In this document: piece after piece, positions 9,232-58,961 of the stretch
Position numbering within the stretch: the first letter of the stretch is position 1
Layout: every line of letters begins with the position of its first letter
DNA from: Undibacterium sp. 5I1
GTDB taxonomy: Bacteria; Pseudomonadota; Gammaproteobacteria; Burkholderiales; Burkholderiaceae_D
DNA: 64,000 bases
Reading direction: 5' to 3'
NCBI RefSeq assembly: GCF_034314085.1
Contig: NZ_JAVIWI010000001.1
Coordinates: 248,001-312,000, forward strand
The notes under the pieces: model-generated
The model's input: the letters and a program-made list of their open reading frames with translations, nothing else
Told to the model about the DNA's origin: nothing
Databases searched by the model: none
Position numbers and translations under genes: made by a program

Positions 9232-9311
9232 ATACTCCTTGTTAGTATATTTAATCGACCAAGTAATTATTGGTATATAAGGCGATTTTTGAAAAAATTA
9301 TGGGGAGTATA
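9232..9311 (+). repeat. 80-bp dispersed element, copy R1
   Basis: Starts ATAC-N9-GTAT (17 nt), then a weaker central stem ACCA/TGGT, then ATAAGGCGATTTTT, and ends GGGGAGTAT. It is oriented with the upstream M14 peptidase gene. Compared with other copies, one central base pair is T-A elsewhere and A-T here. Confidence 0.85.
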
Positions 9312-9426
9312 CGAAATTATCTCTATTTTTGACTAGATGGAATTTCTGCTAAAAAGAAAAAATAATCATAGAAACGTATCGAGTGCAAAGTAAGCGAGAT
9401 TGCCTTTTGCGCTTTGTGCATTTTCG

Positions 9427-9456
9427 CTGAGCGTGTTTTTACGGCGCTCAGTTTTT
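9427..9456 (+). terminator. rho-independent terminator after M14 peptidase
   Basis: A perfect 7-bp stem, CTGAGCG paired with CGCTCAG, with an 11-nt loop, is followed by TTTTT. It probably ends the transcript that includes the peptidase and repeat R1. Confidence 0.65.
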
Positions 9457-9457
9457 C

Positions 9458-9496
9458 ACTTAGCTATTCAACTTAGCTACTCAACTTAGTTAGTCA
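9458..9496. repeat. 13-bp tandem repeat, three units
   Basis: Three adjacent units: acttagctattca, acttagctactca and acttagttagtca. The last two units differ from the first by one and three bases. Confidence 0.8.
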
Positions 9497-9644
9497 ACCA
9501 AGTGAGCCTAATTGCTTAGCCAAAACACGTACTGAATCAGTGCACGATCAAGCTGTTGTTTAGCAACACGTTTGAACCTGCCGCTGTGACAGCAAAACGC
9601 AATTTCTGTTTAATCCTTCATCGTTGTTGTGGTATTTTGTTGCG

Positions 9645-10784: not shown

Positions 10785-10832
10785 GGGGTTTGAAATCAGG
10801 TGTAAAACCTCTAAAAGTTGTCGATTGATGCA

Positions 10833-10860
10833 CAGTTTGTTTTATAAATTGAACAAACTG
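10833..10860. other. hairpin between patatin-like gene and exported protein
   Basis: A perfect 9-bp inverted repeat, CAGTTTGTT and AACAAACTG, with a 10-nt AT loop. It lies 49 bp after the patatin-like stop and upstream of the next promoter. It could be a terminator lacking a T-run or an operator. Confidence 0.5.
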
Positions 10861-10975
10861 TTGTTAATCAAAGAGTTAATTGCCGCATGGATACAACTCT
10901 ATCCTTTTAATTTGATCTAAACTTAATTAGAATCAAAACAGCCTCGCCAGGCTTTCAATCATTACAGGAGTCGCC

Positions 10976-11377: not shown

Positions 11378-11412
11378 TTTGTTCGTATAGTTTGTATTGG
11401 GTTTGTATTAGT

Positions 11413-11449
11413 AAAAAAGCGATGCAGAAAAATCTGCATCGCTTTTTTT
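11413..11449 (+). terminator. rho-independent terminator of the exported protein gene
   Basis: The stem GCGATGCAGA/TCTGCATCGC, loop AAAA, is flanked by A6 and T7, so it can act on both strands. It lies between convergent genes and probably serves both. Confidence 0.9.
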
Positions 11450-11476
11450 ATTGCTGCTCGCCAGAAAAAAATTGGT

Positions 11477-12169: not shown

Positions 12170-12221
12170 TTAGTTTGTTTAGTCTGGTTTGTTTGCTGAG
12201 TTTAGTCAGCAAAGGATTACG

Positions 12222-13179: not shown

Positions 13180-14880
13180 ATGAACAACGATCCACGCTGG
13201 GACGAAAGCCGCGAAATCCGTGCACCACGCGGTGCTGAAAAAACCTGTAAAACTTGGGTAGCCGAAGCCGCTTATCGCATGCTTCAGAACAATCTGGACC
13301 CCGAGGTTGCCGAGAATCCTAAGCATTTGGTCGTGTATGGCGGGATTGGTCGTGCTGCCCGTAATTGGGCGTGTTTTGATCAGATTCTGGCCTCGCTAAA
13401 AGAGTTGGGCGAGGACGAAACCTTATTGATTCAATCTGGTAAGCCGGTCGGCGTGTTCAAAACCAATGAGGATGCGCCCAGAGTGTTGATCGCCAATTCT
13501 AATCTGGTGCCCAAGTGGGCTAACTGGGAACATTTCAATGAACTCGACCGCAAAGGTCTGTTCATGTACGGTCAGATGACAGCAGGTAGCTGGATTTATA
13601 TCGGCACTCAAGGCATCGTGCAAGGCACCTATGAAACCTTTGCCGAAGCAGGGCGTCAGCATTTTGGCGGTGACTGGGGTGGGCGCTGGATTTTGACCGC
13701 AGGTTTGGGCGGCATGGGCGGTGCGCAACCACTGGCGGCTAGCTTTGCTGGCGCTGTTTCTTTAAATATTGAGTGTCAGCAATCTAGTATCGACTTCCGC
13801 TTGCGTACCCGCTACGTCGACAAGCAAGCCAAAGATTTGGACGATGCCTTGGCACTGATCAAACATCATTGCGACCGCAAAGAGGCGGTATCAATCGCCT
13901 TGCTCGGCAATGCAGCAGAAGTCTTGCCAGAACTAGTTAGACGCGCCAAAGCTGGCGGCATGAAGCCTGATCTGGTCACCGATCAAACATCAGCGCATGA
14001 TCTGATCAATGGATATTTGCCGATAGGCTGGACGGTTGAGCAATGGAAGGCAGCACAACCAGATGCAAGCCAGCACGCAAAACTGACTGCCGATGCCGCA
14101 CAGGCTTGCGCGGTGCATGTGCAGGCCATGCTGGATTTCCATGCGATGGGTATTGCGACGGTGGATTACGGCAATAACATCCGTCAGGTCGCGTTTGATA
14201 CCGGCGTGAAGAATGCTTTCGATTTCCCCGGCTTTGTACCTGCCTATATCCGTCCTCTGTTCTGCGATGGCAAAGGGCCATTCCGCTGGGTCGCTTTATC
14301 GGGCGATCCGGAAGATATCCGCAAAACCGATGCCAAGATTAAAGAACTCTTCCCAGAGAATAAAGGCGTGCATAAATGGCTGGATATGGCGGGTGAGCGA
14401 ATTGCCTTCCAGGGTTTGCCAGCACGTATCTGCTGGCTAGGTCTGGGTGAGCGCCATATCGCTGGTCTGGCGTTTAACGAGATGGTTAAAAATGGCGAGT
14501 TAAAAGCACCCATCGTCATTGGACGTGACCATCTCGATACCGGTTCTGTTGCTAGCCCTAATCGCGAGACGGAATCGATGATGGACGGTACCGATGCTGT
14601 CTCCGACTGGCCTCTACTTAATGCCTTGTTAAATACCGCAGGTGGTGCGAGCTGGGTGTCCTTGCATCACGGCGGTGGCGTTGGTATGGGTTACTCACAA
14701 CATTCCGGCATGGTGATTGTGGCGGATGGCACGGATGCAGCAGCAAAACGTCTGGCGCGCGTCTTGGTCAACGATTGTGGTTCCGGCGTGATGCGTCATG
14801 CGGATGCTGGTTATCCGCAAGCGGTTGCCTGCGCTGAGCGTAATGGCTTGAATTTACCCATGATTAATAACTCAAAGTAA
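13180..14880 (+). CDS. hutU: urocanate hydratase HutU
   Basis: The 566-residue enzyme converts urocanate to imidazolonepropionate, step two of histidine degradation, using tightly bound NAD+. Recognisable family segments are [20 protein letters not shown], the glycine-rich [14 protein letters not shown] that contacts NAD+, [19 protein letters not shown] and [16 protein letters not shown]. Length is normal for the family (about 555-565). AGGACGG precedes the ATG. It is the first gene of the plus-strand hut set, but a 344-bp gap with repeat R2 separates it from hutH. Confidence 0.98.
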
Positions 14881-15017: not shown

Positions 15018-15099
15018 ATACTGGTGGTAAGTATATTTTAGGTGTCCAGAGAGTAATTGGACATTAAGGCATATTTGCTAGTGATTGGTGGGGAGTATA
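15018..15099 (+). repeat. 80-bp dispersed element, copy R2
   Basis: ATAC-N9-GTAT start, perfect central TGTCCA/TGGACA stem, ATTAAGGCATATTT, and GGGGAGTAT end. It lies 137 bp after the hutU stop and is co-oriented with hutU. Confidence 0.85.
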
Positions 15100-18697: not shown

Positions 18698-21600
18698 GTG
18701 ACCTTATCAGCCAAAGTGACATTGCAGGCGCATCTCAAAAAAACTTGGCAAGGGCGTATCGGTAAAATCATCATCAGTCTGGTGGGCTTGCTAGCACTGA
18801 TCATCTTGTTGAGTTGGCTGCTGCTACCGGTTTATGCAAAGCGAGTCGCGGTCGAGCAAGTTCAGCAGCAGTTAGGTCGCAAGCTAGCGATTGGCGAGAT
18901 TCGTTTCTCCCCCTTTACTCTCGCGCTCACGGCTAACGATATCAGCTTGTACGAGCCAGATCAGCGCAGCCCGGCACTGTCTTTAAAAACTCTGGTACTT
19001 AATCTCTCATTGAGTTCTGCCTGGCATCGGGCTTTGGTGATCGATGAGGTCAGACTAACCGCACCGCAAGTCCATGTAGTACGCACCAGCGCGGATGCTT
19101 ATGGTCGCTATAATTTTTCTGACATCCTCGATAAACTGGCGGCGCAACCCAAAAGCGATGCGCCTTTTCGTTTTTCTCTGGCGAACTTGCAATTGCAAAA
19201 TGGCAGTATTGTTTTTGACGATAAAGTACTGGGGAAGCACATAAAAATAGACGAGCTGCAAATTGCAGTACCGTTTTTATCCAACTTCCCAAAAGAAGTA
19301 AATAGCTTCATACAGCCGATGTTGTCCGCCAAAATCAATGGCACACCATTCGATTTAAAGGCGCGTAGTAAGCCGTTTGTGGATAGCTTGGACACGACTT
19401 TAGCGATTGATATTGATCGCCTGAATGTACCTGCCTATGTTGCTTATATTCCAGTCCCTTTGCCATTAAAAATACAAAGCGCGCAATTATCTACCAAGCT
19501 GGATCTGACTTTTAGCCGTAAGAAAAACCAAGCAGAGTTGCTGTTATCTGGTCAGCTGCAATTGCATAAAATAGACCTCAGAGATAATGCCGATACCCCG
19601 TTGTTGCTGACCGATGTGATTACGGCGCAGATCAAACAAATTAATCTGATTAGCGGTGCAGCGAGCTTAGATCAGTTAAGCATAGAGGCACCAGAAGTTT
19701 GGCTGGATCTAGACAAAAAAGGCCAGCTCAACTGGGCCAAACTGAGTAGTCCCGCTCTTACTCCAACCCCCGCTACGGATCAGGCAAAGTCTACGCTGGC
19801 AAGTGATCCGATAAAAAATTCTGCTCCAGTTGTTAATGCCGTTAACTCCGCTAACGCTGCTAATACGATTACCGCGGTCACATCAGATTCCAAGAGTAAA
19901 GCAATCATTGCCTTAAATTCTATTGTGCTCAGCAAAGGGCAAATCCATTTTAGTGACGCCTTGCATTCGTCACCAGTTACACCAATTAATTTAAAAGATA
20001 TCGCCCTCAATATTAAACAATTGAGTACCGATGTTGCGGCCAAGCCAGCCAGCGTTTTAATCAGTATCGCTACCGAGCAAGATGCACAAAGTAAATTTGA
20101 AGGGCAATTCAGCGTCGCCAGCGGGATGGTGGATGGCAATGTGAGTCTGAACGGTTTGTCACTGGCTACTTATCAGCCATTGTTTAATCCTGTATTAGCT
20201 GCCACGCTGGCAGGCAAGTTAGCGGCGCAGTCGCATATCCATAGCCAGGACGGGCAAGTAAAAATAGCAGATTTAAATTTGCAATTAGCAGATTTTTCCA
20301 TCCAGTCAAAAGCGAAAACTGAGGGCGGTATTGCAATCAAATCTTTAGCACTGAGCAAGCTAGAACTTGATACTGCGACCAAGGTAGTTAACGCGAGTAG
20401 TTTAGAAATGACAGGTCTGCAAGCCGATGTCCAAAAAGATCAGACCGCAACATTAAATCTGCAAAAATTTTTGATAGCGCGGAATGGACAAAGTGAGCAG
20501 AGTGCAAAACATCAAGCTACTCAAGATAAAGTTAGTATCAATGTAGAAGCAGTAAAGTTGGCTGGTGCTGCCAAGTTTAACAACGCTAGCGCCAGCAATC
20601 CCGCCACTGTTCCAGAATCGAATGCATGGCGCGTCAATCTGCACAATTTTTCTGTCAACGATAGTAGTGTGCGCTTTGATGATCAGTCGCTTTATCCTAG
20701 TGTGAACGTGACGCTGGATGGCATCAGTCTGGTCGCTAGTAATCTCAGCAGTAATCTATTGGACGGTTCAGTCGTGGACAACGCCTTCCAGACGGCGAGC
20801 TTTAAATTAAAAACGACGATTAATCGCAAAGGTAAATTAAGCCTGAGCGCCGATGCCAGTGCTGGCTTAAAAAATATCACGGCATTAATTGATGCCCAGA
20901 CCTTGCCAGTTGCTGCTCTATACCCTTACTTTGCGCGCGAGTTAAATGTCACTTTAAGTCGTGGTGACGCCAGCGCTAAAGGCAAGCTAGTGATCCTGAG
21001 TGACAAAGGACAAGCACCAAAAATAAGTTATGACGGTAATTTAAAATTCAGTGATTTCCATATGCTGGAAAGTGGTGCCAGCGACGATTTTTTAGAATGG
21101 AAATCAATCGACCTGGACGGTATTAACGCAAAATTAGGTGGTAATAAACCTACGATATTGTTGAGGAAATTGAGCTTGACGGATTTTTATGCCAGGGTAG
21201 TTTTGTCTGATAAAGGCAAACTGAATCTGCAAAATATTACCGTCAACAAATCTGCTGACGGCACAACGGATGCGAACAAGATTGTCGAAATCAAGAAGGC
21301 AGATGTCAATTCAACTGACACGGCAAATTCAGTCAACTCTGCTGACGCTGCCACCACCTCCGCTACCTCCGGTACCGTATCTATCGTACCTGCCGCGTCA
21401 GTCTCGGCGACCACGCCAGTCATCGTTTCTACACCGATAGCACCGCCAGTCAAGCAAACTAATCCGCTAGTGATCCGGATTAGTCAAACCGTCCTGCGCG
21501 GCGGCAATGTCAACTTCACAGATAATTTTGTCCGTCCCAATTACAGCGCTAATTTAACTGGCGTTAGTGGCACGATAGGTGCGATTGCGTCTGACAGCAC

Positions 21601-22657
21601 GCAGCCCGCCACAATTGAGTTGAATGGCAAGATTGATAATGATGCGCCGTTAGTGATTTCTGGCACGCTCAATCCTTTATCCTCACCGATTTTTTTGGAT
21701 ATTAAAGGCAGCGCCAACGGGATGGAGCTGACGCGCCTGACACCCTATGCTGCAAAATATGCAGGTTACGCAATTGATAAAGGCAAGTTGTCGGTGCAGG
21801 TGTCGTATCGGGTAGAGAATCAGCAATTGCAAGCGCAAAACGACGTGCGTTTAGATCAGCTCACTTTTGGCGAAAGAATTGATAGTCCCAATGCCACGCG
21901 CTTGCCGGTACAACTGGCACTGGCCTTGTTGCGTGATAACGATGGAAAAATTGCGATCAATTTACCAATCTCTGGCTCTTTATCTGATCCGCAATTTTCA
22001 GTCGGCGGGATTATTTGGAAAGTCTTCGTCAACTTAATTACCAAGGCAGTGACATCTCCGTTTGCCTTGTTGGGGCAGGCGTTTGGTGGCGGAGAGGAAT
22101 TATCCTATGCCGAGTTTACGCCGGGGCTGGCGATCTTGACACCGGACACCAGCGCTAAGTTGGACAACCTAGCCAAAGCGCTCAGCAACCGCACCAGTTT
22201 GCGTATGGATATTCTTGGTAGAGCCGATACGCAAACCGATACAGAGGGCTTGCGCCGCGCCAGTCTGGAGAAAAAAATCAAGCAAGCAAAACTCGCTAGC
22301 TTGCAAAAGAAAAATCCTCAATTGAGTCTGGAGCAAATCAGTTTGGATGAAGGTGATAAAAAAACTTATATCGAAGACGTTTATAAAGCTGAAAAATTTA
22401 GCAAGCCGCGTAATGTGATCGGCATTGCCAAAACTTTGCCACCAGAAGAGGCCGAGCGTTTGATCCTTGCTAACACGCCGGTCACACCTGAAAATCTGCG
22501 TCAGTTAGCCCAACGCAGAGCCGATGTGGTAAGGGATTATTTGGAGCAAACAGGCGGTATTGCCAAAGAGCGACTGTTTTTGATTGCGCCAAAATTGACG
22601 GCAGATGGGATTAAAGATAAAGGTCTGCCAAATCGGGTAGATTTTTCTGTTAAATAG
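18698..22657 (+). CDS. giant DUF748 (AsmA-like) envelope protein
   Basis: A 1319-residue protein beginning at a GTG with AAAGGAA before it. One N-terminal membrane helix (about 26-48) is followed by a long beta-rich periplasmic region with AsmA-like repeats such as IGEIRFSPFTLALTANDISL and the C-terminal DUF748 stretch (PVQLALALLRDNDGKIAINL). Two Ser/Ala/Thr/Asn-rich linkers lie at about residues 365-405 and 865-925. The tail (LRMDILGRADTQTDTEGLRR) looks OmpA-like in rhythm, without clear peptidoglycan-binding residues. AsmA-like proteins are linked to lipid transport across the envelope; the role here is inferred. It begins 34 bp after hutI but is probably functionally unrelated. Confidence 0.85.
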   Translation: MTLSAKVTLQAHLKKTWQGRIGKIIISLVGLLALIILLSWLLLPVYAKRVAVEQVQQQLGRKLAIGEIRFSPFTLALTANDISLYEPDQRSPALSLKTLVLNLSLSSAWHRALVIDEVRLTAPQVHVVRTSADAYGRYNFSDILDKLAAQPKSDAPFRFSLANLQLQNGSIVFDDKVLGKHIKIDELQIAVPFLSNFPKEVNSFIQPMLSAKINGTPFDLKARSKPFVDSLDTTLAIDIDRLNVPAYVAYIPVPLPLKIQSAQLSTKLDLTFSRKKNQAELLLSGQLQLHKIDLRDNADTPLLLTDVITAQIKQINLISGAASLDQLSIEAPEVWLDLDKKGQLNWAKLSSPALTPTPATDQAKSTLASDPIKNSAPVVNAVNSANAANTITAVTSDSKSKAIIALNSIVLSKGQIHFSDALHSSPVTPINLKDIALNIKQLSTDVAAKPASVLISIATEQDAQSKFEGQFSVASGMVDGNVSLNGLSLATYQPLFNPVLAATLAGKLAAQSHIHSQDGQVKIADLNLQLADFSIQSKAKTEGGIAIKSLALSKLELDTATKVVNASSLEMTGLQADVQKDQTATLNLQKFLIARNGQSEQSAKHQATQDKVSINVEAVKLAGAAKFNNASASNPATVPESNAWRVNLHNFSVNDSSVRFDDQSLYPSVNVTLDGISLVASNLSSNLLDGSVVDNAFQTASFKLKTTINRKGKLSLSADASAGLKNITALIDAQTLPVAALYPYFARELNVTLSRGDASAKGKLVILSDKGQAPKISYDGNLKFSDFHMLESGASDDFLEWKSIDLDGINAKLGGNKPTILLRKLSLTDFYARVVLSDKGKLNLQNITVNKSADGTTDANKIVEIKKADVNSTDTANSVNSADAATTSATSGTVSIVPAASVSATTPVIVSTPIAPPVKQTNPLVIRISQTVLRGGNVNFTDNFVRPNYSANLTGVSGTIGAIASDSTQPATIELNGKIDNDAPLVISGTLNPLSSPIFLDIKGSANGMELTRLTPYAAKYAGYAIDKGKLSVQVSYRVENQQLQAQNDVRLDQLTFGERIDSPNATRLPVQLALALLRDNDGKIAINLPISGSLSDPQFSVGGIIWKVFVNLITKAVTSPFALLGQAFGGGEELSYAEFTPGLAILTPDTSAKLDNLAKALSNRTSLRMDILGRADTQTDTEGLRRASLEKKIKQAKLASLQKKNPQLSLEQISLDEGDKKTYIEDVYKAEKFSKPRNVIGIAKTLPPEEAERLILANTPVTPENLRQLAQRRADVVRDYLEQTGGIAKERLFLIAPKLTADGIKDKGLPNRVDFSVK

Positions 22658-22773
22658 CAGTACCTTCTTCTTATTGCGGATAAGTGAGAGTAAGACGGTG
22701 AACTGAATACGGCGTTTAAACAGTACGGCTTTTGTACGGCAAATAGTTTATGTGGTCGCCAATATAATAACTT

Positions 22774-22853
22774 ATACTCCCACTGGGTATATTTTATTGT
22801 CCATATAATTGTTGCTCAATAAGGCGATTTTATTAAAAATCAGGGGGAGTATA
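22774..22853 (+). repeat. 80-bp dispersed element, copy R3
   Basis: ATACTCCC start with GTAT 13 nt later (17-nt unit), ATTGTCCA with a partly degraded partner arm (TTGCTCAAT), AAGGCGATTTT, and GGGGGAGTAT end. The full terminal inverted repeat ATACTCCC/GGGAGTAT is present. It lies 116 bp after the DUF748 stop, same orientation. Confidence 0.87.
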
Positions 22854-27923: not shown

Positions 27924-28084
27924 ACTTTTCTTGCTTCGCCAAGAAAAGTAAGCAAAAGAAGGCGACCTCGAAGTCGCTGCCCCTTCGGGGTTCCCGTTTG
28001 TAGAAGACAAAAATGGGAAAAGTTCGAAACTCGCTTAGCTCAGACAACGAACCTTTCTTATCCATTTTTGCCTTCTACAAACGG
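27924..28084. repeat. composite inverted-repeat block, Burkholderiales-type dispersed sequence
   Basis: It starts with a perfect 10-bp hairpin (ACTTTTCTTG/CAAGAAAAGT, 27924-27949), then a CCCC-TTC-GGGG mini-hairpin. Inverted arms follow at 27994-28016 and 28062-28084 that match at 22 of 23 positions (CCGTTTGTAGAAG... and its complement). From general recollection, similar wording (cttttcttgcttcgccaagaaaagtaagc) recurs in many betaproteobacterial intergenic regions; a database search would confirm this. Confidence 0.7.
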
Positions 28085-28121
28085 CAGCGCCAAAGCGGAA
28101 CTTCAAGCCAAAATCAATAGC

Positions 28122-28247
28122 AAATTCAAATTCAAATTCAAATTCAAATTCAAATTCAAATTCAAATTCAAATTCAAATTCAAATTCAAATTCAAATTCA
28201 AATTCAAATTCAAATTCAAATTCAAATTCAAATTCAAATTCAAATTC
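28122..28247. repeat. microsatellite, (AAATTC) x 21
   Basis: Exactly 126 bp of uninterrupted AAATTC hexamers, with no substitution among the 21 units. Such purity implies recent expansion by slippage. It lies in the long intergenic space between the GGDEF gene and parC, so copy-number change would not break a gene. Confidence 0.98.
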
Positions 28248-28534: not shown

Positions 28535-30877
28535 TCAACCTACACTAAAAATCCCACTTGGTTTGAGCTTGGATTCCAGCGCCTTACCTTTGCGAGCACG
28601 TTTGTTGATGTGGATACTCAAGGCCGACGCGCTTAAGACCACTTCTTGCGGTTTGGCTGCGCGCCCTATGCCGGCAACGCGAACACCTCTTTGGCTGATG
28701 GCCTGTGCTGCCAATAGTTTTTCTTTGGGTTCTAACTCCATTAAAATCACGCCTCTGCCGCCGCTGGTGAGTTGCTTGATCTCTGCCAGGCCGAATACCA
28801 GCAAACGACCTTTTTCTGATAAACAGGCAATCGCGCTGGCTTCTTCTGCGACTAGCGTCGGCTTCAATGGTTCGTCGCCATCGTCAAGCGTCATAAAGGC
28901 TTTGCCGGCCTTCATACGGCCAAACATGTCAGTGGCTTTGGCGGTGAATCCATAACCGGCGCTGGAGGCCAGTAACAGGGTTGAATCGGCTGTGCCTGCA
29001 AAGTAGTGCAAGATTTTCGTACCGCTCGCAAGATCAATCAATGTAGTGATCGGCACACCATCACCGCGTGCGCCGGGCAGCGCTGCAACTGGGACGGAAT
29101 AAACCCGTCCATTGGAGCCAAACACTAGCAACTGATCGATCGTCCGGCACTCAAACGTATTGTAAAGACTGTCACTCGCTTTAAACGTGAACTGGGCATT
29201 GTCATGACCATGGCCTGTGCGTGCGCGCACCCAGCCTTTTTCGGAGATGACGACGGTGACAGGTTCGTCGATGACTTTCTGTTCTGCGGATGCCCGAGCG
29301 GCTTCTTCGATCAGAGTGCGGCGCGTATCACCATATTGTTTGGTATCGGCTTCGATTTCTTTGATGATACATTTTTTCATCGAGGATGGATTGTCTAGCA
29401 AATCTTGCAAGCCGGTTTTTTCCAGGCGCAATTCTTCCAGTTGTTGCTGAATCTTGATCGCCTCTAAACGAGCCAGCTGGCGCAGGCGTATTTCCAGGAT
29501 ATCCTCCGCTTGGATATCGGATAGCCTGAAGGCATCCATCAACGCCGGTTTAGGTTCATCCGATTCGCGGATGATCTTAATGACCTTGTCTATATTTAAC
29601 AGAACGGCTTCCCGTCCTTCCAGAATATGGATGCGGTCATCGACCTTTTTCAGTTTGAACTGAGTGCGGCGGGTGACTGTAGCAAAGCGGAAAGTAATCC
29701 ACTCCTTGAGAATATCGAGCAAGCCTTTTTGACGCGGACGACCATCGCCGCCGATCATTACCAGATTGATGGAGGTCGATGTTTCGAGCGAGGTATGCGC
29801 CAGCAACATCTGCATAAACTCCGCCTGATCCTGATTTTTGGATTTTGGCTCCAGCACCAGACGTACCGAAGCCTCCCGGCCGGATTCGTCGCGCACGGCA
29901 TCGAGCATAGACAATACGACTTGCTTGAGCGAAGCCTGCTCCGGCGTCAGCGTTTTTTTGCCTAACTTGATTTTCGGATTGGTGATTTCTTCGATTTCTT
30001 CCAGAATTTTTTGGGAAGAAACACCGTGCGGCAATTCGGTAATCACGGCTTGCCATTGACCACGAGCCAGTTCTTCAATCTTCCAGCAAGCGCGTACTTT
30101 CATGCTACCGCGACCGGCTGCATAGATATCGGCAATTGCGGCAGCTGGAGTAATGATTTGACCGCCACTAGGAAAATCCGGACCCGGAATCATGCTCATT
30201 AGCTCAGCATGTTGCATGTTCGGATTGCGTATCAGCGCGACTGCGGCTTTGGCGACTTCGGTCAGGTTATGTGAAGGAATCTCCGTCGCCATGCCAACGG
30301 CGATACCGGATGCACCATTTAACAAGACGAACGGAAGGCGACCTGGCAACAAACTCGGTTCTTCAAATGAACCATCATAGTTAGGTTGAAAATCCACGGT
30401 TCCGAGATCGATCTCATCGAGCAATAAACGCGAGATTGGTGTTAGACGTGCCTCGGTATACCGCATCGCCGCAGCACCATCACCATCGCGTGAGCCGAAG
30501 TTACCTTGTCCATCGATCAAGGGATAGCGTAGCGAAAAATCCTGTGCCATACGCACCATCGCGTCATATACGGATTGGTCGCCGTGTGGATGTAACTTAC
30601 CTAAAACATCACCTACTACCGTTGCCGACTTACGCGGTTTGGCAGTGGAGCTCAGCCCCAGTTCGTTCATCGAAAACAAAATCCGCCGCTGTACGGGTTT
30701 TTGACCATCACACACATCTGGCAAGGCGCGACCTTTAACGACAGAGATCGCATAGTCAAGGTAGGCGCGTTCGGCGAAGCTGGCCAGCGTCAGAGTTTCT
30801 CCGCCATCGCCTCCGCCATCGCCTCCGCCTTTGTCGTCATCAGGTGCCTGATCAAATAAATTCGCTTGTTCGCTCAT
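28535..30877 (-). CDS. parC: DNA topoisomerase IV subunit A, ParC
   Basis: DNA-cleaving subunit of topoisomerase IV, which decatenates daughter chromosomes. The 780-residue protein shows the N-terminal [17 protein letters not shown], the quinolone-determining [19 protein letters not shown] and the catalytic Tyr in [30 protein letters not shown] and a C-terminal beta-pinwheel follow. An unusual acidic/glycine run ([14 protein letters not shown]) precedes the core. Where E. coli ParC has Ser in GDSAC, Gln is present (GDQSV). It lies downstream of parE in the same direction, with repeat R4 between them. Confidence 0.97.
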
Positions 30878-30910
30878 TGTGCTTAATTTTGTCGATTAAA
30901 TTATAAAAAT

Positions 30911-30984
30911 AGGGGAGTATCTGCCAATTTCACGCCTAATGTCCATTAATTATATGGACATAAAAATATACTTATGGGTAGTAT
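30911..30984 (-). repeat. 80-bp dispersed element, copy R4 (rearranged 3' end)
   Basis: Read on the minus strand it starts with ATACTACCCATAAGTAT, has a perfect ATGTCCA/TGGACAT stem and ATTAGGCG, then ends in ATACTCCCC instead of GGGGAGTAT. The last segment is therefore inverted relative to the other six copies. It sits 24 bp after the parE stop and 33 bp before the parC start codon region. Confidence 0.8.
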
Positions 30985-30986
30985 AT

Positions 30987-31007
30987 TTTCCGCCTGTAAG
31001 GCGGAAA
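30987..31007. other. hairpin just after the parE stop
   Basis: TTTCCGCCT and AGGCGGAAA form a 9-bp stem with a 3-nt loop, two bases from the parE stop codon and adjoining R4. No T-run follows on the parE strand, so it is not a standard terminator; it may stabilise the parE mRNA end. Confidence 0.6.
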
Positions 31008-31008
31008 T

Positions 31009-39070: not shown

Positions 39071-39150
39071 ATACCCCTAATTAGTATATTTATTTGTCCA
39101 TAGAATCATTGGACAATAAGCGATATTACGTAAAAATAGGAGGGAGTATA
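39071..39150 (+). repeat. 80-bp dispersed element, copy R5
   Basis: ATACCCCT start with GTAT at the fixed spacing, perfect TTGTCCA/TGGACAA stem, ATAAGCGATATT, and GGGAGTATA end. It is oriented as icd, not as the convergent TonB receptor gene, and lies beyond the icd terminator. Confidence 0.87.
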
Positions 39151-41810: not shown

Positions 41811-41822
41811 AATGTATACAAG
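41811..41822. promoter_or_regulatory. candidate GntR operator, proximal
   Basis: AATGTATACAAG carries the GTA-TAC core of FadR-type GntR sites and shares ATGTATACAA with the long palindrome upstream. It lies about 135 bp before the receptor start. Confidence 0.45.
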
Positions 41823-44930: not shown

Positions 44931-47681
44931 CTACGACGCCAACGGTAATTCAACGTAAAAAGTGGAGCCATGACCCTCCACACTATAGAAGCCAATTTTG
45001 CCAGACATCTTTTCTATCATTGACTTAGACAAGCTCAGTCCCAAGCCAGTGCCCGCATATTTACGGGTTGCTTTAGCGTCTTCCTGACTAAATTTTTGGA
45101 AAATGTTTTTTTGGAAGTCCGCAGAAATTCCAATCCCAAAGTCCACAACTTCTAGTCTGACCCAATCTGCAATCTGACGGATATGAATTTCTACTACGCC
45201 ATTTTGTTGGGAAAATTTGATCGCGTTTGAAAGTAAATTGGACAATACTTGCATTAATCTCTGGGTATCAACACTGACCATCGACGCTGGTGAGGCTTCG
45301 TAGAAAAACTGCATTTTGATGGAGAAGTTTTGAGCATATCCCTGGTTCGCTTCAATGCTTTGTTTGACTAGGTCACGCAAGATAATTTTTTCTATATTGA
45401 ATTGGATACCGCCATATTCTAATTTTTCAAAATCCAGCAAATCATTAATCAACAAGGTCAGGCGAGAAGCATTGTTGTTTGCCATCGTGACTAAAGTTTT
45501 TGCCTGATCTGACAATCCTCCGCCAACACCACCCGCCAACAAGCCAAGTGCACCACGGATGGAGGTGAGTGGTGTACGTAACTCGTGCGATACAGAGGAG
45601 ACAAATTCGCTTTTAAGTTTTTCTATGCGTTTTCGTTCAGACAAATCATGCAAAATTAAAACCACTAAATTTTGTGTTCCTAACGCTACTTTAGCCATCG
45701 CTAGTTCTAGCGGAATTTCTTCATGAGTTCTTTTTTTAGCGACCACTTCTTTACGTGCCGCTGTGGCGGTGCTGATGGTGTTGTCGCCTGTCATGTCAGA
45801 TTCTATATGGTCATTCAGATAGGCTGCTAAAAAAGTGGCTGATTCTACTTCTGGGAAAAGCTCCAGAATATTACGTCCAAATAATGCACCTGTTGAATAA
45901 TCGAGCAATATCTCTGCGGATTGATTGGCGGATGTGATTAGTCCGTGCGCATCTGTTGTGATGATCCCCTCTGCGGCATTGGCTAAGATGGCACGCAAGC
46001 GGGCTTCACTTTCATGCAGTTGACTGGTGCGTTGCGCGACTAATTTTTCTACATTAAAAGTATGTGCGGTCGCTACCAGTACATAAACAGCTAATAAGGC
46101 GGAAAACAGTAAGCTGCCAAATTTGGTGAACCAGGTGATCCATGATGTATGAGCCGCCCAATAGGTCGCTGATGGTTGCGCCAGAAACGCATATTGTCGA
46201 CTACCAAAATCAATCGTGGATTGGAAAACATGAGCGGCGTCGATGACTTTGATTGAGTCATAAAAAACACCATTACTTCCAGGGTAAGACAGGTCATAAA
46301 ATTCAAGTAAGAGATTGGCTTTTTTTTCTTCATTCAATAAATCACCGACCAGATTTTTTATTCTTACAACGCTGACTGCGGTACCCCGAAATGCGTCACG
46401 TCTTTCTTGTATATTGGTCACGGACTTGCCCCGTGCATAAATAGGTGCGTATAACAAGACGGAAAAATACTTGTCGTCCCCCGACAGAAGTACCAGGGGA
46501 TCGGTGACGGCAAGTTTGCCGCTATCTCGCGCTTCTTCTATCGCATTGCGCCTGATGGCGGTGCTGCCCATGTCAAAACCAAATACTCTTTTACCGTTTT
46601 CAAATGGCTCTATGTAGGTGATAGGGAAGTAATCCTCACGGTCTTCTGCGGGGACAGTTTTTCCGTTACTATTTTTTTCAGTAATTTGGAAGCTGATAAA
46701 GCCTTCACGTAATACGGATTCTTCAAACTTCGTTTTATCCGCGCGTAGCACTCTAGGCACCCAAAGCAGATCAGTAATTTCTTTTAGTGTGGTGAGCGGA
46801 TGTTCAGTAAAAATATGGAATTCAGTGCGGGATACTTTTTCTGATGCTGAATACAGGCGTTCTAAATCTTTGACCGCATCTGCATGCGCATTAAGGTTAT
46901 TTTGTAGTTTCTGGCTAATTCTCTCTGCTTCCAAACGGAACTCAAGTCGCTGTTTTTGGTCTTCTCTGTTACGGATAAAAACGAAGGCGATGATGACAGT
47001 AATCAGACAAATAACCAAAGGGAGCATGACTCCGTAGCGTCTGAATTGCCAAATTTCTCTTGGTCTGGCAAACAAAATCAGGATGAGTGGCGTGGTAATC
47101 AAAACTCCCAAAGTATCGCCTATCCACCATGTCAGCCAATGACTGCTGATATCGGATAAGGATATGATCCCAAATCCATAGAGAGCGATTACACCCCAGC
47201 TAGCGCTAACCAGACAACCTAAAACTGCACCCATGATAAAAAAGGTAAAAATATCCTGATCGGTATCTAATGCAAGTTCATTGCTGAACTGTATTGGTTT
47301 CTTTGTATGTTTCTGTAATTGCTTATTTAATTGTTTTTGAACTAGATAGCTACTGAGGAAAGCCTGCATACAAGCGCCGCTGGCTAGTACTGTGGCAAGC
47401 AGCAAATTGTTGCTTGTAATCTTGTGAGCTGGTTCCCAAGCGATGAGCAAGTTCACAATCAGTGAACCCAGTGCAACGCCAGGTAGCAGACGATATCCTC
47501 GGGTCAGAATTATGCCGAGCGCAATACCTGCTGGTGGGTAGATCGCAACGGCATAACCAGGAGGAATCGCTAGAAGCAGAGACAAGCGTCCCAATATGGC
47601 ATACACCAAAGTCAAACATAAAATTTGGAGCAATAAGCTGGATCTTAGACCGTCAGACATGCGTTTTACAGCAACCTGCAT
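44931..47681 (-). CDS. MASE1-CHASE-PAS sensor histidine kinase
   Basis: A 916-residue membrane kinase. The N-terminal MASE1-like part (about 15-215) has several helices, including YAVAIYPPAGIALGIILTRG. A CHASE-type periplasmic domain (about 245-510) follows, with REDYFPITYIEPFENGKRVFGFDMG, and then another helix (about 520-545). A PAS domain (570-685), a HisKA domain with H at about 697 in SSVSHELRTPLTSIRG, and an HATPase domain (YAGTGLGLSLSKSMIEKMSG) complete it. The response regulator is not adjacent. CHASE domains sense small extracellular ligands; the ligand is unknown. Confidence 0.92.
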   Translation of the reverse strand: MQVAVKRMSDGLRSSLLLQILCLTLVYAILGRLSLLLAIPPGYAVAIYPPAGIALGIILTRGYRLLPGVALGSLIVNLLIAWEPAHKITSNNLLLATVLASGACMQAFLSSYLVQKQLNKQLQKHTKKPIQFSNELALDTDQDIFTFFIMGAVLGCLVSASWGVIALYGFGIISLSDISSHWLTWWIGDTLGVLITTPLILILFARPREIWQFRRYGVMLPLVICLITVIIAFVFIRNREDQKQRLEFRLEAERISQKLQNNLNAHADAVKDLERLYSASEKVSRTEFHIFTEHPLTTLKEITDLLWVPRVLRADKTKFEESVLREGFISFQITEKNSNGKTVPAEDREDYFPITYIEPFENGKRVFGFDMGSTAIRRNAIEEARDSGKLAVTDPLVLLSGDDKYFSVLLYAPIYARGKSVTNIQERRDAFRGTAVSVVRIKNLVGDLLNEEKKANLLLEFYDLSYPGSNGVFYDSIKVIDAAHVFQSTIDFGSRQYAFLAQPSATYWAAHTSWITWFTKFGSLLFSALLAVYVLVATAHTFNVEKLVAQRTSQLHESEARLRAILANAAEGIITTDAHGLITSANQSAEILLDYSTGALFGRNILELFPEVESATFLAAYLNDHIESDMTGDNTISTATAARKEVVAKKRTHEEIPLELAMAKVALGTQNLVVLILHDLSERKRIEKLKSEFVSSVSHELRTPLTSIRGALGLLAGGVGGGLSDQAKTLVTMANNNASRLTLLINDLLDFEKLEYGGIQFNIEKIILRDLVKQSIEANQGYAQNFSIKMQFFYEASPASMVSVDTQRLMQVLSNLLSNAIKFSQQNGVVEIHIRQIADWVRLEVVDFGIGISADFQKNIFQKFSQEDAKATRKYAGTGLGLSLSKSMIEKMSGKIGFYSVEGHGSTFYVELPLAS

Positions 47682-47843
47682 TGGGATTCCTTGGCGGTGA
47701 TGTTGCTATGAACTTCTATTTATTTTTGCTTATTCTTTTAGCGTATTTGTTATCAGTATTTTCCGCGGTCGAGAGCTGAGAAATATTCAAAACTTCGAGC
47801 ACCCAGAGCGATATTTGTGTCACATATTTTATAGAGAATAAAT

Positions 47844-47923
47844 ATACTCCCCATTATTTTTTTTAAATATGCCGTTCTGACCATTAAATATATAGACGAT
47901 CAATATATACCTACGTGGAGTAT
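47844..47923 (-). repeat. 80-bp dispersed element, copy R6
   Basis: Read on the minus strand: ATACTCCACGTAGGTAT, a weakened central stem (ATCGTCTA...GGTCAG), GGCATATTT, A-run, GGGGAGTAT. It lies 134 bp after the stop of the GspE-like gene and in the same orientation. Confidence 0.82.
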
Positions 47924-47989
47924 ATATTGCTCTATTGCTGAGTTTATCAATAATTTGTCTGATAATTATATTAGCCAAGCAGTATTTAA

Positions 47990-48057: not shown

Positions 48058-49839
48058 TTAAATCAATGATGAAGTTACTTTTAATACCTCATCTGCGGTG
48101 GTGAGTCCCTCGATAATCTTATAAGCACCTGCGATACGCAAAGGTTTCATCTGATCTGCAATGCTCTGCTTTCTCAGTGCATGAATATCTGACTCTTCTT
48201 TGATGAGTTTGCTGAATGGCAGCGTTACAGTCAACAATTCATATAAGCCGGTACGACCTTTGTAGCCTGTCAAGCGACACTCAGGGCATCCTACTGGTCG
48301 ATAAATTGTTGTCGGTTTTGGTAGGTTCCATTCTTCGGTCAGACTTTTCCAGACAGCATCAGCTATTTCACCATCACCTGATTTGCAATGCGAGCATAGC
48401 GTTCGCACCAGTCGTTGCGCCAGAATCCCGATGATGGTTGCCTCCAGTAGATAATAGGGAACGCCTAATTCCAGCAGACGCATAATGGCGGATGGCGCGT
48501 CATTGGTATGTAAGGTTGATAGCACCAGATGCCCGGTCAATGCTGCCTGGATGGCCATTTCAGCCGTTTGTAAATCACGGATCTCACCCACCATAATGAT
48601 ATCGGGATCTTGCCGCATTAGAGCGCGCACGCCATCGGCAAAGTTCAGGTCAATCGATGGTTGTATCTGCATTTGGTTGAAAGAAGGCTCTACCATTTCG
48701 ATCGGGTCTTCTACCGTACAGACATTCACATCTGAAGTGGCGAGGGCTTTTAAGGTGGTGTAGAGCGTTGTGGTTTTGCCAGAGCCGGTTGGACCAGTGA
48801 CCAAAATAATTCCATGCGGTTTACTCGTGAGCTGATCCCAGCGACCAGCGTCCAGTGGTGGGAAACCCAGTTCTGGTAAGGTCTTTACCACCACTTCCGG
48901 ATCAAAAATACGCATTACCACTTTTTCACCAAACGCCGTTGGTAATGTGGATAAACGGAGCTCGACCTCTTGTCCGTCAGCGGTAAGGGTTTTGATACGA
49001 CCATCCTGTGGCCGGCGTTTTTCAATCACATCCATACGTCCCAGCAATTTGATCCTCGCAGTCATCGCAATCATAACCGCTGCAGGGACTTGGTACACCT
49101 GATGCAGTACACCATCGATCCGAAAACGGATTAAGGCCATTTCACGCTTGGGTTCGAGGTGGATATCGGAGGCGCGTTGATCAAATGCAAATTGCCAGAG
49201 CCAGTCAACAATATTGATGATGTGCTGATCGTTGGCGTCGACTTGCTTATTAGCCTTACCTAGCTCGACTAGTTGTTCAAAATTACTTCTGAGTGAAAGG
49301 TCATTTTTGCTGGCTTTTTTAGCGTCTTTAATTGATTTCGCTAATGAGAAAAATTGCGCAATATACTGAGAAATATCGAGCGGGTTGGCGAGCACTAAAC
49401 GGATTTCTTTACGCGTGATTTTGGCAATTTCTGGCTGCCACTCGGTATTAAAAGGATCTGTAGTCGCAATCGTGACGCTGTCCAGAGTGGATTCTACGGG
49501 CAAAATATTGAAGCGAGTCGCGTAGTTGGACGACATCACATCAGATACTTTGGTGAAGTCAATTTTTAGAGGATCAATCCGATAAAAAGGTAACTGAACC
49601 TTGTGCGCAGTCCACTCTGTTAGCCAATCCAAAGTTAATTGCTGGTTTGGTTTTTTAACCGAGTGCAGCTTGGCCTGCGCGATTGCTGTTAGCGTGTGCA
49701 TCGCTGCAGGACCATTTCTCAGAATCGCTTGGGCGCTATTGAATTCTGCCTTTGCATTTTCCTTGAGGATAATACCGTCTGCCATCAACCATGTGAAAAT
49801 TTGCTGCATGTTCAGAGATTGCTGTGGCGACTTAGTCAT
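48058..49839 (-). CDS. GspE/PilB-type secretion ATPase
   Basis: A 593-residue protein with an N-terminal MshEN-like part (about 90-165), then the AAA-like motor. Walker A is GPTGSGKTTTLYTTLKAL (about 345-362). The Asp box VCTVEDPIEMVEP, Walker B MRQDPDIIMVGEIRD, the His box ALTGHLVLSTLHTNDAP and the zinc-binding C-x2-C pairs (CSHC and CPEC) follow. All motor residues are present. Such ATPases power type II secretion or type IV pilus assembly, but no pil or gsp genes lie nearby, so it is an orphan copy. It is co-directional with, and 23 bp from, the spermidine-synthase-like gene. Confidence 0.92.
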   Translation of the reverse strand: MTKSPQQSLNMQQIFTWLMADGIILKENAKAEFNSAQAILRNGPAAMHTLTAIAQAKLHSVKKPNQQLTLDWLTEWTAHKVQLPFYRIDPLKIDFTKVSDVMSSNYATRFNILPVESTLDSVTIATTDPFNTEWQPEIAKITRKEIRLVLANPLDISQYIAQFFSLAKSIKDAKKASKNDLSLRSNFEQLVELGKANKQVDANDQHIINIVDWLWQFAFDQRASDIHLEPKREMALIRFRIDGVLHQVYQVPAAVMIAMTARIKLLGRMDVIEKRRPQDGRIKTLTADGQEVELRLSTLPTAFGEKVVMRIFDPEVVVKTLPELGFPPLDAGRWDQLTSKPHGIILVTGPTGSGKTTTLYTTLKALATSDVNVCTVEDPIEMVEPSFNQMQIQPSIDLNFADGVRALMRQDPDIIMVGEIRDLQTAEMAIQAALTGHLVLSTLHTNDAPSAIMRLLELGVPYYLLEATIIGILAQRLVRTLCSHCKSGDGEIADAVWKSLTEEWNLPKPTTIYRPVGCPECRLTGYKGRTGLYELLTVTLPFSKLIKEESDIHALRKQSIADQMKPLRIAGAYKIIEGLTTADEVLKVTSSLI

Positions 49840-55138: not shown

Positions 55139-55144
55139 CTAATG

Positions 55145-55981: not shown

Positions 55982-56110
55982 CGATTACGATCCTGAATCT
56001 TGTAGTCTTGCTTGCAGTAAAAAACTGGTACACCTCCTAAAATACTCTTGCTGCTTAGAAACGGGTAAATTATTTACATAAATTTTCCTTATTTGGGGAA
56101 AAAATGATAA

Positions 56111-57739
56111 TTACTCGGGTTTGAACTCCTGCGCAAAGGTAAATTCATCTGTTCTGGCTGCATATTTGAGGCCTTTTCGCAACGCCCATGTAGCATATTG
56201 ATGATGGAGCGGGATAACCGCATAATCGCGCAAAGCCACGCCCATGGCCTTTTTAGCAAAATCACGGCGCTTGGTGTCGTCCACTGATGCTAAGGAGCTA
56301 CGGATTAATTCATCCAGTGCCGGATTACTGTATTTGCCCCAGTTCCAGCTGCCCCAGCCTGTTTCTGGATTTGCTGTTCCGAGCAAAGTCCGCAAAGCAA
56401 AATCACCTGCCACGCTGCCCCAGCCTAACAAGGCAATACTGAATTCGCCCTTGGAGGCTTTGGGGAAATATACCGCCAGCGGCATCGTTTCTACTTTGGC
56501 TTGTATGCCGATTTTGCTTAAAAATTGCGCCACGGTTTGTACTATTTGTTCGTCATTGATATAGCGATTATTCGGGCCATGCAGAGTGATATTAAAACCA
56601 TTGGGATAACCAGCCTCTGTCAGTAATTTTTTTGCTCCTTCGGGGTCGTAAGCTTCGACCTTAACGGTATCGTCATACCCCAAAATGCCTGGCGCTACGA
56701 TGTTAGAAGCAGGTACTGCCAAACCTTCTAAAACGCGGTCACTTAAGGCCTGGCGATTAATCGCTTTAGAAATTGCTTTGCGCACGCGGATATCGTGTAG
56801 TGGATTGGTGGTTAAAGGCTTGCCTGCTTTATCCGTGATATGAGGAGACACATGGGCTTGTTGATCGAGCGCCCAAAAAATCGTACGCCAAGAAATTTTT
56901 TGTTCTAATTTAACTTTGACGTTCGTTTTTAATTTAGGTAAATCGGCGGGTGGCACACTTTCAATTGCATCTACATCGCCCGCCAGCAGGGCTGCTACAC
57001 GGGGTGCGCCGCTGGTCAGTATGCGCAAAGTCACTTTGTCCCAATGAGGTTTTTCGCCCCAATAATTGTCATTGCGTACCAGTTCAATACGATCACCACG
57101 CTTGGCGCTAACGAATTTAAATGGCCCGGTACCGATCAGCGCTTTGCCTGTATTAAAGTCGTCTGTACTGGCATTTTGTGCGACTTTTTTTGACACGATA
57201 AAAATCGAATTAACATCTAAAGGCAAGGGGCCGTATGGGGTCGCAGTCTTCAAGCGTACCGTGTAAGCATCAACCGCTTGTTTGCTGATAATTTGTTTGG
57301 TGTAACTGGTAAATGAGCCGGGGCTATTGAGGATAGTGGCGGGGCGATCAAGTGAGAAAATGACGTCTTCTGCAGTCATCTCTGTGCCGTTGTGGAACTT
57401 GACTCCATGGCGCAATTTGAATTCCCATGTCAGTGGGTCAATCGCTTTCCATGAGGTTGCCAAGCCGGGAACCAGTTGGCCATTGCTATCCAGATTGACC
57501 AAAGCATCAAAAATATGGAAAGCGAATGCGTTATTCGGGCCGCTATTTAAATAATGCGGATCGAAGGACGTTACGTCCGCAGCCAGACCTACACGTAAAT
57601 GTAAATCTGCGGCGATACCTGGGGTGCTCCAGCCCAGCGTTAAGGCCAACAAACTGGCCGTACAAATAGCTAAGTACGTTTTTTGTTTGAGCTGGATGGC
57701 TCGGGCTAATGCAGAGGTGATTCGTTTAAAAATACGCAT
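56111..57739 (-). CDS. ABC transporter periplasmic peptide-binding protein (SBP family 5)
   Basis: A 542-residue precursor with a long basic n-region and signal peptide (about 1-43, cleavage GIAA-DL). The mature start LRVGLAADVTSFDPHYLN and the domain segments EFKLRHGVKFHNGTEMTAEDV, AISKAINRQALSDRVLEG, AEAGYPNGFNITLH-type and WGSWNWGKYSNPALDEL are standard for DppA/OppA proteins. It delivers peptides or similar solutes to a permease. No permease or ATPase genes are adjacent, so it is an orphan. The basic n-region may be longer than needed. Confidence 0.92.
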   Translation of the reverse strand: MRIFKRITSALARAIQLKQKTYLAICTASLLALTLGWSTPGIAADLHLRVGLAADVTSFDPHYLNSGPNNAFAFHIFDALVNLDSNGQLVPGLATSWKAIDPLTWEFKLRHGVKFHNGTEMTAEDVIFSLDRPATILNSPGSFTSYTKQIISKQAVDAYTVRLKTATPYGPLPLDVNSIFIVSKKVAQNASTDDFNTGKALIGTGPFKFVSAKRGDRIELVRNDNYWGEKPHWDKVTLRILTSGAPRVAALLAGDVDAIESVPPADLPKLKTNVKVKLEQKISWRTIFWALDQQAHVSPHITDKAGKPLTTNPLHDIRVRKAISKAINRQALSDRVLEGLAVPASNIVAPGILGYDDTVKVEAYDPEGAKKLLTEAGYPNGFNITLHGPNNRYINDEQIVQTVAQFLSKIGIQAKVETMPLAVYFPKASKGEFSIALLGWGSVAGDFALRTLLGTANPETGWGSWNWGKYSNPALDELIRSSLASVDDTKRRDFAKKAMGVALRDYAVIPLHHQYATWALRKGLKYAARTDEFTFAQEFKPE

Positions 57740-58266
57740 AGGGTTCTCTATCTTTTTAAGACTATGCCCGCTGGTGCCAGAATGTTGATTGGCCGTTGCT
57801 GAGCATTGAGGTTTTTATCGTTATCAGGACTTACTTAAACTGCCTCAGCGAGCCTGTGCTTCTTCGTCATATGCGTGCACATGCAGGTTCATGCAGGCGT
57901 ATTTTTGATGATGCACGTGGGCGCTACTGCTGCAGGCTTTTTTCGTAACTCCTAGTGAGACTATTTCTTTTGAAAATAATCTTAATTTGTCGCCAGCATA
58001 AAGTAAAAGACCAAATATGTTTTGCGATAACCATTTTTCGACTATGGGTTGACGTATGTGTTTGCGCCTGTTGATGTTTAGACAAACCTAGTCATGTTGA
58101 ATTTGCAATGAGTTTGGCTTGTGGTAGTGTGGTGGCTTATTCATGCTTTACTTTGGTTTTGCTCCAGTTTCGCTACAGAATTTCTTCTTTGTGTACGCCG
58201 ATCATTTTTGTAATACGCCGCTATTTTTTAGCATTGATTAATACAGCCGACATCTAGGAATATGAA
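57740..58266. other. intergenic region, 527 bp
   Basis: No gene was seen. A degenerate AGGACTTAC...CGTAACTCCT inverted pair at about 57826 and 57953 may be a decayed member of the GACTTACGCAAAA family. The rest is AT-rich with no clear operator. Confidence 0.45.
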
Positions 58267-58815
58267 ATGCCTCTTCAAATAGTATCTCGCTTAAAAACTC
58301 GCTCACAAACTAATGTGCAAGGTTTAGTTACCAGTGTTGCTATGGCTGGTTTGCTCTTATCCACAATTTCTTGCAGCGCTACTCCTGCTACTGACATGAA
58401 CGATAAAAAAGCTGCTTCAGTTGCCCCCCCCGCCGCCACCGCCACTTCTGCCTTGTCTGACGTTGCGCCAACGACGATCATACTGAGCTATCGCCAAGCA
58501 ACCAAGCTTGCCAAACAGGGCATGACGATAGAGGTGACCGAGGTTACTGATAGTCGTTGCCCGCCAAATACGCGTTGTGTTTGGGCAGGGCAGGCAACAG
58601 TGAGTTTTAAAGTCAGCCAGCCCGGCACGCCGGAAGCATTGCTGGTGATTGGCACCCCCGCACCAGCGGCAATGAATTTGCCGGCAGACGCTAATTACGG
58701 CGGATATCGATTTTCTTTAGTGAATCTGGAGCCGAAGAAAGTCGCCGGAGAGAATGTAGCGCCCGAGGCGTATAAGGCTGAAATCATGATGAGTAAAGCG
58801 GACGCTGCGAGGTAA
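58267..58815 (+). CDS. exported protein with conserved RCPPNTRCVWAG motif, unknown function
   Basis: A 182-residue protein with an N-terminal hydrophobic segment and a lipobox-like TISC at about 36, then an Ala/Pro-rich linker. The folded core starts at about 70. It holds VTDSRCPPNTRCVWAGQATV, with two cysteines six residues apart; this motif occurs in a set of small secreted bacterial proteins whose function is unknown to me. GGYRFSLVNLEPKK follows. The ATG at 58267 is used; an in-register alternative five bases upstream would be out of frame. Confidence 0.65.
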   Translation: MPLQIVSRLKTRSQTNVQGLVTSVAMAGLLLSTISCSATPATDMNDKKAASVAPPAATATSALSDVAPTTIILSYRQATKLAKQGMTIEVTEVTDSRCPPNTRCVWAGQATVSFKVSQPGTPEALLVIGTPAPAAMNLPADANYGGYRFSLVNLEPKKVAGENVAPEAYKAEIMMSKADAAR

Positions 58816-58882
58816 AACGCTTGCGGTTTTGATTCAGATTTTCAGTACGGATTTTTTATGAAGCTGTAAAGTGATAATGAAT

Positions 58883-58961
58883 ATACTCTCATCTAGTATA
58901 TTTTATTGTCCAATCAAAGTCTGGACAATCGACTATATTTATGAAAATCGAGGGGGAGTAT
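58883..58961 (+). repeat. 80-bp dispersed element, copy R7
   Basis: ATACTCTCATCTAGTAT start, perfect ATTGTCCA/TGGACAAT stem, GGGGGAGTAT end. It lies 67 bp after the exported-protein stop in that gene's orientation and opposite to efp. Confidence 0.88.

Follow-up and report, generated by a model that had tools for sequence, protein, structure and literature searches.

A dispersed 80-bp extragenic element at gene 3' ends in Undibacterium sp. 5I1, possibly a set of sites for a DNA-binding protein

The closest described counterparts of the element reported here are the repetitive extragenic palindromes (REPs) and bacterial interspersed mosaic elements (BIMEs) of enteric bacteria, for which two sources are drawn upon (PMC3733652 and PMC2817692). 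In PMC3733652 a GTAG/CGTC-tagged REP is a stem-loop of 20-40 bp with GTAG or CGTC at its head, and most REPs are placed in one-way and convergent gaps. The same source argues that families of the REP type are distributed too unevenly to matter as components of the chromosome, an argument against REPs having an architectural role. PMC2817692 reports that BIMEs bind IHF and gyrase and that the genes of REP-associated tyrosine transposases (RAYTs) are always flanked by two inverted REPs; as RAYT genes are flanked by long inverted repeats instead in some species (PMC3733652), flanking by two REPs is not absolute. The present subject is a family of elements of about 80 bp, seven copies of which (R1-R7) lie in a 64,000-nucleotide stretch of Undibacterium sp. 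5I1 DNA, called the window below. Like REPs and BIMEs it has hundreds of intergenic copies, mostly in one-way or convergent gaps near gene 3' ends, and since this is the placement given for REPs in PMC3733652, placement alone is not new. The family is nevertheless a new form of dispersed extragenic repeat: as had been supposed from the window alone, no name was found for it, there being no match to Rfam in the window at the gathering score and nothing relevant in the literature searched on Undibacterium, Oxalobacteraceae and Burkholderiales repeats.

Small dispersed repeats of bacteria are usually explained as mobile or as hairpin-forming. In the tests made here this family shows neither present movement nor a hairpin that covaries within lineages, and its centre differs between lineages, even at one shared site. 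Constraint at fixed sites, boxes without a fold inside a lineage, lineage dialects and mutual avoidance of the copies together favour a site that is read by a protein at the level of the DNA. Judged from sequence, each copy may be a unit of a chromosome-wide set of multi-box sites for a putative DNA-binding protein or complex, BIME-like in placement; we adopt this reading tentatively, as plausible but somewhat short of probable.

Type A copies consist of an ATACTCC box, AGTATATTT, a rigid TGTCCA-N9-TGGACA dyad, T/A tracts and a GGGGAGTAT box, and the consensus of 88 copies from 5I1 over 81 positions reads TATACTCC-(variable)-GTATATTTAATTGTCCA-TATAATAAT-TGGACAATAAGGCATTTTTTATAAAAATAATGGGGAGTATA. 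Outer and inner boxes form an imperfect palindrome with consensus arms of 23 and 33 bp. Element length is nearly constant at about 80 bp. So is the dyad spacer: 85 of 88 type A copies of 5I1, 29 of 30 type B copies and 71 of 75 copies of the near relative G035 have exactly 9 nt there. Type B, of which 30 copies were read, is type A with its final part reversed in place, and the terminal inverted repeats ATACTCC/GGGGAGTAT of type A are absent from it; among the type B profile matches listed, 51 of 145 extend to position 71 or beyond, into the reversed box. Relative to genes, type B copies are 10 sense, 10 antisense, 8 convergent and 2 divergent. A strand bias of type B with replication was considered, as 10 of 11 non-type-A copies in the sampled blocks lie on one strand, and was rejected because the genome-wide list is mixed.

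Other arrangements occur as well. At L081 1190-1229 (C1 373190) the first box is reversed, with GGGGAGTAT at the left, and the G035 copy there is almost unchanged. A scrambled, longer relative at C1 561222 (block A, position 313222), missed by the profile, starts with GGGGAGTATATTTAATT and has separate TATACTC/GAGTATA boxes. In G033 copies (L362-L381) the ATACT and AGTAT of the left module enclose either a C-run or a G-run, so that the module exists in both orientations, which looks like inversion of small palindromic modules where they stand.

The chromosome of 5I1 is contig C1 (4,709,037 bases, 4.71 Mb), and a second contig, C2, has 171,029 bases. A sequence-only family profile made from 33 copies finds at least 150 strong copies genome-wide, the 150 listed all lying on C1. 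In two C1 blocks of 464 and 200 kb (664 kb), 67 copies were counted at E-values up to 0.01, partial matches included, after 5 of 72 matches had been removed as the opposite-strand shadow of another copy. Extrapolation gives about 475 copies for the chromosome, roughly one per 10 kb, whereas the whole of C2 (171 kb), searched with the profile, has no match against about 17 expected at C1 density. The 105 copies that were placed, namely the 67 of the two blocks and 38 further independent ones drawn from high-scoring matches rather than at random, are all intergenic by the gene calls of a home-made codon-usage script, no standard gene finder being used; a cruder list of open reading frames (ORFs) put 3 of 45 copies within ORFs of 76-88 aa, which were judged spurious. 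A gene 3' end adjoins 95 of the 105, the arrangement being sense for 40, antisense for 28, convergent for 27 and divergent for 10. Gaps of at least 100 bp in the two blocks number 206 one-way, 59 convergent and 85 divergent, so the element avoids divergent gaps and prefers convergent ones.

The window copies and their neighbours are as follows.

R1, 9232..9311, plus strand: type A, 3' of a Peptidase_M14 gene (7511-9202); also at that site in G035.
R2, 15018..15099, plus strand: type A, 3' of a urocanase gene (13180-14880); also at that site in G035.
R3, 22773..22853, plus strand: type A, 3' of a DUF748 gene (18698-22657); also at that site in G035.
R4, 30904..30985, minus strand: type B (last box reversed), between a topoisomerase B-subunit gene (31009-33000) and an A-subunit gene (28535-30877), probably parE and parC to judge from Pfam matches, lengths and adjacency.
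R5, 39071..39150, plus strand: type A, in a convergent gap 3' of a gene (37643-38896) of the isocitrate/isopropylmalate dehydrogenase family, probably icd; also at that site in G035.
R6, 47843..47924, minus strand: type A, flanked by genes for a type II/IV secretion ATPase (48058-49839) and for a CHASE/MASE1 histidine kinase (44931-47681); also at that site in G035.
R7, 58882..58961, plus strand: type A, in a convergent gap 3' of a 182-aa ORF (58267-58815).

The original prediction, made from the window alone, was accurate on the copies themselves: all seven exist where it had put them, with ATAC-N9-GTAT in every one, and all start close after a stop codon, at 24-175 bp; they are a small share of several hundred. 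The match is far better than chance would give: their profile E-values run from 1.4e-9 (R4) to 8.6e-22, under a model built from copies that include most of R1-R7, and the near-confinement of the GGGGAGTAT core to copies, described below, is independent evidence. R2, R4, R5 and R7 have a perfect GTCCA/TGGAC stem and R3 and R6 a degraded one, as had been described; the stem of R1 is degraded too. The sequence GGGAGTAT does end six of the seven, the exception being R4, the last box of which is ATACTCCCC in place of GGGGAGTAT, in the opposite direction, and which thereby represents the second subtype. ATAC-N9-GTAT also occurs at 41816, which is not a copy of the element. The further claim that the element always lies in the orientation of its gene is true for the window only: one-way gaps hold 40 sense and 28 antisense copies (two-sided binomial P 0.18), or 35 and 28 without the window's five (P 0.45), five being the informative number because convergent copies (R5, R7) match one neighbour by necessity. 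Orientation toward genes is thus a weak lean at most, and the argument drawn from it for an mRNA 3'-end function or for transcription-coupled insertion falls. A genome-wide tabulation of orientation had been proposed along with that argument, lack of bias being named as a result that would tell against it, and lack of bias is how the tabulation came out. The consistent feature of the family is its place at gene 3' ends, not its direction.

Copies avoid one another. The smallest interval in the 664 kb is 2,164 bp and none is shorter than 2 kb, where a random choice of non-divergent gaps leads one to expect about 5-7 such intervals in the larger block (P <= 0.0006) and about 2 in the smaller (P 0.04-0.07); the coefficient of variation (CV) of intervals in the larger block is 0.61 against 0.91 expected (P 0.0004). 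Among the 150 best copies one interval is below 2 kb, against 9.3 expected. One pair of copies about 220 bp apart in G015 and one inverted pair with a box in common in G035 (C205:48-191) show, however, that the 2-kb avoidance is not absolute in the genus. BIMEs, by comparison, are made of at least two alternating REP units and often form arrays, and the 664 kb of 5I1 contain no tandem or mosaic clusters. Strand runs among the 150 best copies were also looked for and rejected (83 minus, 67 plus, 74 runs against 75.1 expected).

Retention at fixed sites is complete where it could be followed. Every 5I1 copy with both flanks mapped in G035 has a partner there (18 of 18), and every mapped G035 copy has a partner in 5I1 (18 of 18), from a scan of 80 and 47 copies, respectively, the remainder being unmappable with the sequence at hand; in a previous set, which overlaps this one in part, 13 of 13 copies were shared. 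No site among the 18 mapped is empty in either genome, and there is no sign of present spread, as the original prediction had argued. It had also named absence of the copies from related strains at the same loci as a sign of mobile-element spread. Such absence is not found in G035 but does hold for R5, no element having been seen in roughly 315 bp after icd in 20 more distant members of the genus. Element-free gaps occur at shared loci in more distant species, as seen in unaligned sequence. Over 14 full-length pairs from 5I1 and G035, family-conserved columns have differences at 22 of 509 sites (4.3%), middling columns at 21 of 280, variable columns at 40 of 336 (11.9%) and flanks at 258 of 3333 (7.7%), so that the conserved rate is lower than that of flanks (P 0.004) and of variable columns (P 7e-5), the conservation classes being derived from 5I1 copies that overlap the compared pairs. 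This suggests that the family-conserved columns are moderately constrained.

Between lineages the layout stays and the centre changes. This was seen in six other species of the genus; G015 has a GCGCA/TGCGC dyad where 5I1 has GTCCA/TGGAC, and two copies from another genus (L422, L423) have CCGCA/TGCGG. In both cases the two halves have changed jointly, which either a dimer site or a stem would predict. In the dyads of G033 and G020 the halves are unlike each other. The parE-parC gap allows such dialects to be followed at one site. By eye, 5I1 has a type B element there, and of 19 other genomes of the genus 7 have one too (G035, and six further species with diverged versions) and 12 are without it. 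The copies of 5I1 and G035 at this site are nearest to 5I1 copies, and that of G020 is nearest to G020 copies (14.8 against 2.8, from four G020 copies); those of G033 and G027 tie between G020 and G033 copies, and that of G013 was left out of the assignment because the script could not cut it.

Two other features lie in the flanks of R4. A GC-rich hairpin at 30986-31008 stands directly after parE and before the element, and G035 is without the hairpin yet keeps the element. A short repeat of the GGCGGAGGCGAT type lies near the start of parC, at about 30780-30840 of the window on the minus strand.

The profile made from 5I1 copies matches 18 of 60 relatives (5I1 itself included), all in one genus. 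A broader profile was made from 24 copies, 3 of them from 5I1, 19 from six other species of the genus and 2 from another genus. Among the 145 genomes and 44 genera of the taxonomic family that it was run on, 13 genomes and 4 genera have the element, one genus by a single match; copies read from two of those other genera have the same boxes, and one of them is type B. The ParC protein of 5I1 shares 85-86% identity with those of named Undibacterium records, and there were zero matches to the element in 148 kb of the ParC loci of named relatives (L117-L123, 7 of 80 loci). Nothing was found in viral_contigs searched with two exact patterns or in plasmids and phages searched with one blastn of R3 each, searches that diverged copies would escape.

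A hairpin in the mRNA finds no support. RNAalifold predicts zero pairs on 33 copies, and covariation within the 5I1, G035, G015 and G033 lineages yields no nested run of covarying pairs and no helix, unlike in REPs, where complementary changes keep the palindrome. The strongest coupling in the 5I1 consensus (88 copies) joins columns 44 and 46 and is not Watson-Crick; the four-lineage scan gives single column pairs at z 3.8 to 4.6, with negative extremes to -6.1, and type B has one marginal covarying pair (P 0.043 among nine pairs).

The mechanism that would follow for a protein site can be outlined. A protein dimer or tetramer would contact the boxes in double-stranded DNA, which is suggested because the 10-bp difference between the arms is about one helical turn. 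Its specificity may drift between lineages, with the sites following, and promoters would exclude the element, leaving 3' ends. The likeliest job would be in the topology of the chromosome or the architecture of the nucleoid where transcription units end, by analogy with what has been proposed for the gyrase- and IHF-binding BIMEs of enteric bacteria. A bolder form of the idea, which we consider quite unlikely, is that the elements anchor a putative nucleoprotein system that would divide the chromosome about every 10 kb, at transcription-unit ends, protein and sites co-evolving so that each lineage rewrites the centres of hundreds of fixed sites and keeps outer boxes and spacing, with subtypes differing only in the direction of one box. 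Identification of the binder would directly test the idea that architectural sites are spaced along bacterial chromosomes at the ends of genes.

A number of observations weigh against a protein site set of this kind. Under stricter filters, half of the genus (18 of 36 genomes) has no match to the 5I1 profile and four more genomes have 1-4 matches, so that in these either the function, if any, is not needed or is served by other means, or divergence conceals the copies. Absence from C2 could reflect a recently arrived plasmid, the parE-parC copies of G029 and G003 fit no sampled lineage well, and the evenness of spacing is not significant in the smaller block (CV 0.81, P 0.42-0.49) and is not seen among the 150 best copies taken alone, a thinned subset (CV 1.01). 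The joint change of dyad halves in G015 and the other genus is explained by a stem as well as by a dimer site. The rate contrast with G035 is modest and comes from a non-random sample, most G035 contigs having been chosen for holding listed copies; an earlier, much stronger contrast over 19 pairs (14/683 against 390/3366) was inflated because the copies were chosen partly by their fit to the model, and it is not relied on. In the five full-length pairs from the window blocks alone, conserved columns (11/181) do not differ significantly from flanks (120/1192, P 0.10).

This last comparison is what one would expect of a fossil family of miniature inverted-repeat transposable elements (MITEs), of which Correia elements are an example: an old burst of small inverted-repeat elements that is neutral now. 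The family is short, dispersed and without coding capacity, and type A is bounded by ATACTCC and GGGGAGTAT as inverted repeats. Against this, conserved columns are slower than variable columns and flanks in the larger set mapped by synteny, the copies avoid one another, and at a shared site the length, the boxes and even the subtype persist in diverged species. The family also differs from MITEs in that no site was found to vary between 5I1 and G035, no partner transposase was identified and type B is stable without inverted ends. A MITE fossil is very unlikely. The main rival is a long-lived REPIN-like population of small non-autonomous elements, rarely copied in trans by a resident RAYT-type (Y1) transposase, with lineage centres stemming from each lineage's recent founders. 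It keeps this rank since several of the marks described would also be expected of an old population that is copied slowly, and we regard it as possible though unlikely. As in REPIN-RAYT systems, there is a large population in a genome with a RAYT-like gene and type A has two inverted end boxes; the copy number and the intergenic 3' placement resemble those given for REPs in PMC3733652, and the inverted pair in G035 with its common box fits as well. PF01797 is matched in all 26 genus genomes searched, but such matches occur also where the element is not seen. The 5I1 protein is RAYT-like (NF047646, 59.3 bits, below the cut-off of 80) and its gene is followed by an element about 130 bp downstream; in G035 and G020, too, a copy lies near that gene, and a second PF01797 fragment of 5I1 (L277) is about 1.1 kb from a copy. 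Given a density of one copy per 10 kb and the bias toward gene ends, a single neighbour of this kind is unremarkable. A copy lies near the RAYT-like gene in 3 of the 16 genomes inspected, 15 of which have element matches, and it does so on a single side and not as two inverted flanking copies; this was judged with the 5I1-based profile and exact motifs, which could miss diverged copies. Turnover is zero at the 18 mapped sites, the element ends are not hairpins by the covariation tests, and the 88-copy consensus has neither a GTAG nor a CGTC head on either strand.

A role at the 3' end of mRNA, as terminator, processing or stability signal, was the proposal of the original prediction. It agrees with the 95 of 105 copies that border a 3' end, and the joint changes of dyad halves between lineages suit a stem. 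Convergent ends with a copy are also poorer in intrinsic terminators (9/54 against 39/100 without, P 0.006, room unmatched), but the apparent replacement of terminators by the element had to be given up, as it is gone once the room before the element is matched (6/38 observed against 8.5 expected, P 0.22), and a terminator scan finds a signal inside the element at 1 of 82 gene ends. Both orientations are used, the box reversal of type B would not be expected to leave an RNA structure intact, and the covariation test suggested at the time, run here, gave no conserved fold or covarying helix within lineages; an mRNA signal is highly improbable. The most improbable of the explanations is that the element serves natural transformation, as a DNA uptake sequence that has lineage dialects. 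Like uptake sequences the family is chromosomal, intergenic and diversified into dialects, it has a high copy number, 3' placement and no copy found on the second contig, and the Neisseriaceae are Betaproteobacteria too. Known uptake words are, however, far shorter than 80 bp with rigid multi-box spacing. This family acts as a whole unit, its core being almost never alone: of the GGGGAGTAT cores in the 664 kb, 61 of 63 sit at whole elements, within 40 bp of a copy, and 2 lie elsewhere, with 0.8 expected in all.

Beyond the family, an unrelated repeat at 28005-28245 of the window is multi-copy in several relatives (G002, G010, G015 and others) and single in the 5I1 sample, and its use as a neutral control was dropped because of this one copy. 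Strong PF01797 (Y1 transposase) matches distinct from the RAYT-like gene are found at L274 and L247 (G000 C1 1427891 and 1440008; C2 74480 and 95998).

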